DNA from: Methylobacillus sp.
GTDB taxonomy: Bacteria; Pseudomonadota; Gammaproteobacteria; Burkholderiales; Methylophilaceae
Direction of reading: 5' to 3'
DNA: 54,947 bases
Assembly: GCA_018607785.1 (NCBI GenBank)
Contig: JABBAU010000055.1
Location: forward strand, 1-54,947
Made by a program: the position numbers and the translations under genes. Shown in pieces: positions 51,927 through 54,380 of the stretch; the stretch's first letter is position 1, and every line of letters starts with the position of its first letter. The notes under the pieces are model-generated. The model was not told the DNA's origin. It worked only from the letters and a program-made list of their open reading frames with translations, and did no database searches.

Positions 51927-52562
51927 ATGAGAAAATTTATTTTATTACTAACGTTATTTTTTTCAACTGTTGTTTTTGCCGTAGAGCCAAAATTTAACGT
52001 TAATTTTAAACAAACAAAAAAAGAGATTGAGTCGTCATCTCCTGGAAAAATAGAAGTTCTCGAACTTTTTTGGTACGGATGTATTCATTGTTATTCAATG
52101 GATCCTTACCTAGAAAAATGGGCTGACAAACTGCCTGAATATGTAGTATTTAAAAGGATTCCTGCTATTCCAAGGAAGAGTTGGGTGCCAGGTGCAAAAG
52201 CATATTTCGCATTAGAGACACTTGATTTAGAAGGAAAACTTCACGAGAAGTTATTTGATGCAATTCACAAAGATAAAGAGCTCGATCCTAATGATGAAAA
52301 AGCACTAATTAATTGGATTACACTAAACGGTAAGCTTGATAAAAAAGAAGTTAAATCTGCCTTTAATAGTTTTTCAATTGATACAAAATTAAAAAAATCT
52401 TACAAAATTTTTAAAGATGCTGGCGCTACTGGAGTACCTACAATTATCATAGATGGTAATTACATGACCTCAAGTACAATGGCTGGTGGTGAGCAAAATG
52501 CTATTGATATTACAAATTACATTATAGAAAACATTAGAAACGATCAAAAAAAACCACAATAA
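51927..52562 (+). CDS. dsbA: Thiol:disulfide interchange protein DsbA
   Basis: 211 residues with a signal peptide (MRKFILLLTLFFSTVVFA), the active site C52-I-H-C55 (ELFWYGCIHCYSMDP) and cis-Pro loop GATGVPTIIIDG. C-I-H-C differs from the usual C-P-H-C by Ile for Pro, a detail that should alter redox potential slightly. It oxidises secreted proteins, a likely route for forming disulphides in the envelope proteins encoded nearby. It lies 19 bp after the SPOR gene. Confidence 0.94.
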   Translation: MRKFILLLTLFFSTVVFAVEPKFNVNFKQTKKEIESSSPGKIEVLELFWYGCIHCYSMDPYLEKWADKLPEYVVFKRIPAIPRKSWVPGAKAYFALETLDLEGKLHEKLFDAIHKDKELDPNDEKALINWITLNGKLDKKEVKSAFNSFSIDTKLKKSYKIFKDAGATGVPTIIIDGNYMTSSTMAGGEQNAIDITNYIIENIRNDQKKPQ

Positions 52563-52638: not shown

Positions 52639-53691
52639 ATGATACAACACCGAACTCCTGCAAATATGAGTGATCATGTTGCTCTGATTATCACCAAAAT
52701 TCTTCGTTTTTTTGCAGATACCTTTTTTGCTAAACGTTATGGTCATCGGGCTGTTGTGTTAGAAACCGTCGCCGCTGTTCCTGGAATGGTCGGGGGAATG
52801 TGGATTCATCTCACTTGTTTAAGAAAAATGGAAAGTGATCGAGGTTGGATAAAAATTCTTTTAGATGAAGCAGAAAATGAAAGAATGCATTTAATGACTT
52901 TTATTGAAATCGCTCAACCCAAATGGTATGAACGTCTTGTTATTTTGGCTGCACAAGCAATTTTTTGGAATTTCTATTTTTTATTGTATGTTTTTTTTCC
53001 CAAAACCGCGCATAGATTGGTTGGTTACTTCGAAGATGAAGCGGTGATAAGTTACACTGCCTATTATGATCAAGTATCAACAAATCCATCTCTTAACGTT
53101 GATGCGCCACAAATTGCAAAAGATTATTGGAATTTAGCTGAGGATGCTAAATTACTTGATGTTATCAGGGTAGTGAGAGATGATGAACAAAATCACTCTG
53201 AAGTGAATCACGGTCGTGCTGATTCTCTGGGTAATAGTGGTGACAAAAAATCTCCAAAACAAGAACCTAATATTAGCCAAATAAATGCTTCGGATTTAGA
53301 GTCATATAAAAATGCTAATTATCATATTTATGATAAACCTCCATTTATTTTAAAAATAGGGACTGAAGAGAAAATTTTTGATAAGTTATTTGAAAAAAAT
53401 GATGTGAAAGAGGCAGCCATTTTAACGGCATATAATCCAAAAAGTGTTGAAACAGACATCTCTATCAATAAAGAGCAAAATCTTGAATTAGAAAAAAAGT
53501 TAGTATCTGAAAACTTTTCTTTTATACCTGCTGAAGGTGTTTGTCCAAATAATAAATGGCCAGGAGAAAAAAGTTTTTTAGTGTTTGGAATGTCGCTGGC
53601 TTCTGCTAAAGATTATGGCCATCAGTTTAATCAAAACGCCATCGTTTGGGTTGATGGAACAAAGATTCCTCAATTGATTTTGTTAAGGTAA
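52639..53691 (+). CDS. Alternative oxidase fused to a C-terminal DUF3293 domain
   Basis: 350 residues in one uninterrupted frame. Residues 1-195 are a di-iron alternative oxidase with ligands E42 (LETVAAVPGMVGG), E81 and H84 (NERMH), a Glu in FEDEA (131-135), E183 and H186 (RDDEQNH), and membrane-associating helices around 95-125. A polar linker (196-222) leads to about 125 residues matching DUF3293: YKNANYHIYD, ILTAYNPKS, EN-like EQN, KWPGEKSFLVFGMS and FNQNAIVW. AOX oxidises ubiquinol and reduces oxygen to water without pumping protons. DUF3293 has no known function and is usually a separate protein, so the fusion is the odd point. Confidence 0.88.
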   Translation: MIQHRTPANMSDHVALIITKILRFFADTFFAKRYGHRAVVLETVAAVPGMVGGMWIHLTCLRKMESDRGWIKILLDEAENERMHLMTFIEIAQPKWYERLVILAAQAIFWNFYFLLYVFFPKTAHRLVGYFEDEAVISYTAYYDQVSTNPSLNVDAPQIAKDYWNLAEDAKLLDVIRVVRDDEQNHSEVNHGRADSLGNSGDKKSPKQEPNISQINASDLESYKNANYHIYDKPPFILKIGTEEKIFDKLFEKNDVKEAAILTAYNPKSVETDISINKEQNLELEKKLVSENFSFIPAEGVCPNNKWPGEKSFLVFGMSLASAKDYGHQFNQNAIVWVDGTKIPQLILLR

Positions 53692-53694
53692 ATT

Positions 53695-53919
53695 ATGGAT
53701 TTTCGTAAAATATTTTTAAATTTTTTCACAGTTCTCAATACCGTTTATTTAGGGCTTGTTATTTACATAGAATTTTTTATGGAAAATTTAAACAAAGAAC
53801 CTTATGAAATTTATTACGATTTATGGATGTATGTTTTTGTAGGGTATTGTGCGATATTAATCTTCAATTACGCTATGTTTGGCAAAGTAACTTTGTGGAA
53901 CTTTAATTCAAAAAAATAA
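53695..53919 (+). CDS. Small two-helix membrane protein behind the AOX gene
   Basis: 74 residues with two predicted membrane helices (about 6-28 and 44-64) joined by an acidic, Tyr-rich loop (NLNKEPYEIYYDLWMY). The ATG comes 3 bp after the AOX-DUF3293 stop, so it is almost certainly co-transcribed. I recognise no family. Its position suggests a partner or membrane anchor of the oxidase, which is inference only. Confidence 0.7.
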   Translation: MDFRKIFLNFFTVLNTVYLGLVIYIEFFMENLNKEPYEIYYDLWMYVFVGYCAILIFNYAMFGKVTLWNFNSKK

Positions 53920-54110: not shown

Positions 54111-54380
54111 ATGGCAAAAATATCCTTAAAATTTACTGAGGAAGATATATCCCGCATTATAGAAATGGCTTGGGAAGACAGGACCCCGTTTGAGGCAATT
54201 TTAAAAACTTATGGTTTAGATGAGCCTAAATTAATGAGGCTTATGCAAACTAATTTAAAGAAATCATCATATAAATTATGGAGAAAACGGGTAAAAGAAA
54301 AATCCATAAAGCATTTGAAACTTCGATCAGAAGATGTCACTAGAGCCTACTGCCCAACACAATACAAAATAAGTCGGTAG
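54111..54380 (+). CDS. DUF2805 / TIGR03643 family protein
   Basis: 89 residues with the family layout: ISRIIEMAWEDRTPFEAILKTYGLDE, then VKLMRxxLKxSSYKLWRKRV (here PKLMRLMQTNLKKSSYKLWR) and the end HLKLR. The compact helical pattern resembles a helix-turn-helix-like DNA or RNA binding fold, but the function is not established. In other genomes it often lies near photolyase or cryptochrome genes; none is visible here. A structured non-coding island begins immediately after its stop. Confidence 0.85.
   Translation: MAKISLKFTEEDISRIIEMAWEDRTPFEAILKTYGLDEPKLMRLMQTNLKKSSYKLWRKRVKEKSIKHLKLRSEDVTRAYCPTQYKISR

Follow-up and report, generated by a model that had tools for sequence, protein, structure and literature searches.

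The window analysed here, a stretch of 54,947 nucleotides from Methylobacillus sp., contains a gene in which an alternative oxidase (AOX) is followed in the same frame by a DUF3293 domain. This raises the question of whether the two are parts of one protein, how they came to be joined and whether DUF3293 acts on the oxidase. We take the genus to which the window belongs (OM43/BACL14-type) to be relatives of the marine OM43 methylotrophs. The features of the locus are as follows.

51927 to 52562, + strand: DsbA-like thioredoxin-fold protein, directly upstream of the fusion (Pfam, gene order)
52639 to 53691, + strand: AOX-DUF3293 fusion gene, 350 aa, stop codon included (Pfam, relatives)
52642 to 53220, + strand: alternative oxidase domain, residues 2-194 (Pfam PF01786; E42, E81, H84, E132, E183, H186)
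53221 to 53292, + strand: polar linker, residues 195-218, partly like the linker between AOX and Old Yellow Enzyme (OYE) in other genomes of the genus
53293 to 53688, + strand: DUF3293 domain, residues 219-350, Pfam core 262-335 (PF11697, 22-sequence alignment)
53695 to 53919, + strand: 74-aa protein with two hydrophobic stretches (hydropathy), starting 3 bases past the fusion stop

The fused gene and its two domains

The open reading frame at 52639-53691 runs from an ATG start to a TAA stop over 350 codons and has no internal stop. The initial annotation described one uninterrupted frame leading from AOX through a polar linker into DUF3293, and the frame together with the Pfam matches of both domains bears this out. 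In the HMM search that it proposed, each domain scores above its cut-off: PF01786 matches residues 2-194 (profile positions 11-215 of 216, E 1.5e-76, 257.3 bits against a cut-off of 22.7) and PF11697 matches residues 262-335 (profile 1-73 of 73, E 8.2e-19, 68.4 bits against a cut-off of 25). Even with the E limit raised to 1, Pfam gives no PF00724 (OYE) match for the fusion protein, and neither the fusion nor the 74-aa protein has a match in NCBIfam or PHROGs.

The AOX half is a complete di-iron oxidase, as had been claimed. The PF01786 match spans the domain, and E42, E81, H84, E132, E183 and H186, presumably the iron-binding residues as in the trypanosome oxidase, are all kept and are invariant across 13 aligned AOX rows. 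The solved structures that this half matches are those of mitochondrial AOX (9kun, 9m2a and 3vv9), and it aligns with 3vv9 across residues 2-196. AOX is very likely still active as a non-pumping quinol oxidase, and we would expect a cytoplasm-facing, non-proton-pumping ubiquinol:oxygen oxidase, both the activity and the membrane side being predictions. A COX1-type haem-copper oxidase is present in 28 of the 31 genomes of the genus, including that of the window, which suggests that AOX is an auxiliary oxidase, most likely an electron valve beside the haem-copper enzyme.

The initial annotation placed DUF3293 at about 223-350. Comparison with standalone DUF3293 proteins puts the whole domain at about 219-350, with the PF11697 core at 262-335. 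DUF3293 proteins are mostly free-standing and about 140 aa in length, whereas here the domain is the C-terminal part of an oxidase. The fusion shares with them the full Pfam core and five residues (N266, P267, N277, E310 and Q332) that are invariant in 22 aligned DUF3293 sequences. AlphaFold2, run with five sequences, predicts an alpha/beta fold for the DUF3293 half, in a model of modest quality (mean pLDDT 63.7, pTM 0.63). There is no convincing relative of DUF3293 in the PDB (best E 0.18 with a single sequence and 0.12 with a profile), and neither the DUF3293 half nor the 74-aa protein matches PADLOC.

Could the join be an assembly or frame artefact that merges two genes? The genome of the window (1.18 Mb) is in 73 contigs, which leaves some room for such an error. 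Against this, the same architecture, sought in related genomes, is present in five further genomes of the genus, one copy being cut by a contig end. The four other full-length copies are 73-78% identical and one of them lies in the single-contig genome G019. We therefore reject an artefact as almost certainly wrong; AOX-DUF3293 is a real gene, in which a known family takes on a new domain architecture.

The architecture is also unusual, as first supposed. AOX was found in 14 of the 399 genomes of an order sample and in 19 of the 398 genomes of a phylum sample. The AOX frames in these samples are of 205-270 aa with two exceptions, the window's own and a 343-aa frame in which the extra length lies upstream, so the window's AOX frame alone is long enough for a trailing DUF3293. 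In the other genera examined AOX ends about 10-45 residues past the NH motif, whereas that of the window runs on into DUF3293.

Distribution and origin of the fusion

Among the 31 genomes of the genus, which are about 0.7-1.4 Mb in size, AOX-DUF3293 occurs in six (full-length in G000, G022, G019, G014 and G023; cut by a contig end in G017), AOX joined to OYE in seven (G005, G025, G027, G029 and G015, and the contig-end-cut G024 and G009) and AOX alone in four (G004, G010, G018 and G028). DUF3293 is present without AOX in G013, and there is no match to either in 12 of the 31, although several of these genomes are incomplete and the absences are not firm. G029, G013 and G027 have a separate DUF3293 gene, as does G025, where a contig end truncates it. 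G002 has an AOX remnant of 50-58 residues; the AOX locus is undergoing loss in this genome. At L137 the remnant corresponds to about residues 146-197 and is flanked by an SDR gene and a YqaJ-type gene. G020, G026 and G030 are without AOX though the DsbA tree places them within the group that bears AOX.

Comparison of 15 genome pairs gives dN/dS values of 0.10-0.31 for the DUF3293 half and of 0.02-0.09 for the AOX half, where one pair is saturated; many of the synonymous distances are >1 or saturated. These ratios indicate purifying selection on both halves. In 11 of the 15 pairs dN is higher in the linker than in either half. Between residues 195 and 255 there is no in-frame ATG from which the whole of DUF3293 could be made alone in any of the six fusions; TTG or GTG codons are found near the junction in four of the six. 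The presence in six genomes, the dN/dS values, the invariant residues that are kept and the lack of an in-frame ATG for a lone DUF3293 together support the view that the fusion is a protein kept by selection.

The second fusion to come out of this work combines AOX with PF00724 (NADH:flavin oxidoreductase / Old Yellow Enzyme) in frames of 584-589 aa where complete and undisturbed. Three of the seven were identified by Pfam scan and the remainder by PF00724 search. At four loci in other genomes of the genus a peroxiredoxin gene comes next:

L008, 1501 to 3255: AOX-OYE
L009, 451 to 2205: AOX-OYE
L010, 1501 to 3255: AOX-OYE
L017, 364 to 2133: AOX-OYE

Within the genus PF00724 is confined to the seven AOX-OYE genomes (G009 has in addition a sub-threshold fragment on a different contig), and a genome search found it in none of the six AOX-DUF3293 genomes. 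Among the best 60 of 141 matches, the solved structures closest to the OYE half are those of ene-reductases, glycerol trinitrate reductases among them. AOX-OYE is possibly a one-chain NAD(P)H-quinone-oxygen oxidase. It shares with AOX-DUF3293 the locus, the AOX clade and a similar linker motif, but carries a flavoprotein where the fusion of the window has DUF3293. Within the reach of our samples both fusions look like inventions of this genus, and among the literature matches listed there is no prior report of AOX-OYE.

One genome, G029, has the gene order SPOR, DsbA, AOX-OYE, DUF3293 and a 78-aa membrane protein that is a homologue of the 74-aa protein. Its DUF3293 starts directly past the stop codon of OYE, with which it is in frame. 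G029 joins the six fusions at 100/97 in an AOX tree of 17 genus rows and 8 others, and the fusion rows at 100/99 in a tree with 16 genus rows from which G009 was omitted. In a DUF3293 tree of 45 rows, G029 and the fusions group at 98/87, inside a genus group at 80/89. The agreement of the AOX and DUF3293 trees was counted in favour of an origin by deletion of OYE. The DsbA tree leaves the placement of G029 open. The six fusions themselves form one clade at 99/97 with DsbA and 99/90 with DUF3293, with moderate support in the two AOX trees (82/74 and 85/70).

Additionally, the linkers of the two fusions are alike: 3 of 2000 position shuffles were as good beyond the AOX end and 7 of 2000 over the whole linker, with six linkers per side from related rows, so that these are counts and not probabilities. 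Most of the signal comes from a short K-E-P motif, and the linker of the window aligns poorly by itself. Clear relatives of the 74-aa protein, which has no match in Pfam, were found among 61 genomes in the six fusion genomes and G029 alone. The relative in G022 is 20 residues at a contig end, that in G017 is on another contig, and three further weak matches (G015, G022 and G009) contain stops. The DsbA-like gene is the constant left neighbour of the AOX site across the genus. In the other readable AOX-OYE genomes an SDR gene lies between DsbA and AOX, and it is missing from G029 and the fusion genomes; in G024, DsbA and SDR are on another contig.

Taken together, the G029 array, the trees, the linker likeness, the relatives of the 74-aa protein and the missing SDR gene suggest that one in-frame deletion explains the fusion. 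The starting array would have been like that of G029, with AOX-OYE, DUF3293 and the small membrane protein in a row. Deletion of OYE and its stop codon in frame would then have joined AOX to DUF3293, most likely in the ancestor of the six genomes. We consider this origin, with the oxidase half left intact, to be probable on comparative grounds. It would be a stepwise gene fusion of which the apparent before- and after-state are both preserved within one streamlined genus.

The origin is well supported but has one weak witness, since G029 is the sole array with DUF3293 on the same strand. The genome is of poor quality, with a completeness of 47%, an early stop codon in the AOX frame, K at the position of E183 and two stops in the DsbA match. 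In G025 and G027, DUF3293 is at the same locus on the opposite strand, behind a peroxiredoxin gene, which counts against the proposed origin. The initial annotation had named separate genes with stops in close relatives as evidence against a fusion. Such genes are found in G029, G025 and G027 only, with OYE and stops intervening, and we read them as the earlier state; the fusion in the window stands.

The role of DUF3293

The initial annotation suggested that DUF3293 regulates, anchors or senses for the oxidase. In such a case the domain would bind a cytosolic metabolite and switch AOX on or off, or would anchor AOX through the 74-aa membrane protein. Consistent with this, the fusion has been kept in six genomes under apparent purifying selection and with no in-frame ATG for a lone domain, the N, P, N, E and Q that are invariant in the 22 aligned sequences are kept in it, and the 74-aa protein follows this unit only. 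However, in 11 further genomes of the genus AOX is present without a DUF3293 fused to it, and the 35 DUF3293 and 19 AOX genomes among the 398 of the phylum sample (taken as one sample and judged by genome handles) coincide in the window's own genome only, where about 1.7 would be expected. Neighbours of DUF3293 elsewhere do not share a theme either: none was common to 86 neighbours at 44 loci, these being the longest frame on each side, named by eye only.

DUF3293 as a general partner or regulator of AOX is not supported by this overlap of 1 in 398. Additionally, G032, a genome of the same family outside the phylum sample, has both genes, unlinked. Because the fusion most likely arose from neighbours through loss of OYE and because the overlap is so small, regulation is one possibility only. 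Direct regulation of AOX by DUF3293 is possible, but we think the regulatory or sensory reading rather unlikely overall.

We give about an even chance to a near-neutral join, a by-product of genome streamlining in which the deletion merged two neighbours and the halves work as before without interacting. The locus has lost parts repeatedly (the four genomes with AOX alone, the remnant in G002, and G020, G026 and G030 without AOX), the genomes of the genus are small, and DUF3293 is a standalone protein elsewhere. On the other hand, each of the five complete fusions retains an unbroken frame and two whole domains, and none has been split again, although this is compatible with neutrality too.

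In our preferred reading the fusion is a lineage-specific two-domain respiratory protein in which the AOX C-terminus bears a folded cytosolic DUF3293. Most likely the tethered DUF3293, together with the co-encoded 74-aa membrane protein, retains a function of its own, now held beside AOX at the membrane.

In a bolder reading, which we regard as distinctly speculative, the C-terminus of AOX would serve this genus as a socket into which cytosolic redox partners can be swapped. It would have carried OYE first, as a one-chain NAD(P)H-to-quinone-to-oxygen oxidase, and DUF3293 later, and DUF3293 with the 74-aa protein would be a quinone-linked redox or metabolite-sensing module. If true, it would give the first functional handle on the DUF3293 family. 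DUF3293 is tied here to a defined respiratory enzyme, within one protein that is open to expression and assay. If it controls or feeds the oxidase, a testable function would follow for the carriers of DUF3293, roughly 9% of the genomes sampled.

AOX and DUF3293 elsewhere, and neighbouring genes

DUF3293 is present in 34 of the 369 genomes of a class sample and in 35 of the 398 of the phylum sample. Other candidate fusions were sought among the longest frames alone. By eye, frames in G426 (636 aa), G800 (541 aa) and G750 (850 aa) seem to owe their length to read-through from upstream in GC-rich DNA, and those of G561 (237 and 258 aa) resemble a longer DUF3293 protein; these were rejected. A 438-aa DUF3293 frame in G270 has no match with a custom profile. 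In two genomes (L107:1405-1818 and L108:1402-1821) the DUF3293 gene overlaps the 3' end of an upstream thioredoxin-like gene (by eye) on the same strand. We found no mention of DUF3293 in the texts searched.

In the order sample AOX is also present in four genomes of a different genus of the family, whose genomes are 1.3 Mb in size. In the three examined it is an unfused gene with different neighbours, and it branches apart from the AOX sequences of the window's genus, which form a single clade (100/99). Our literature search found no text with both 'alternative oxidase' and 'OM43'.

Across the genus, 13 genomes have two rhodopsin genes, 12 of them with AOX and one (G002) with the remnant; AOX is present in 2 of the 13 genomes with one rhodopsin and in 3 of the 5 in which none was found. 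Shared ancestry may explain this co-occurrence; a non-pumping oxidase alongside light-driven proton pumps would make sense as a pairing. As far as the available text of PMC6794327 goes, marine OM43 have one rhodopsin only; the term 'alternative oxidase' is absent from its main text.

A DUF2805 protein (Pfam) at window positions 54111-54380 adjoins the fusion unit, and relatives of it occupy the corresponding position in G019, G014 and G023, which also carry the fusion. Finally, the genes of a proton-translocating NAD(P) transhydrogenase (PntB, the 4TM part and PntA; L063:8185-10986, which is 55184-57985 of the same contig, past the window end) sit close downstream on the opposite strand.
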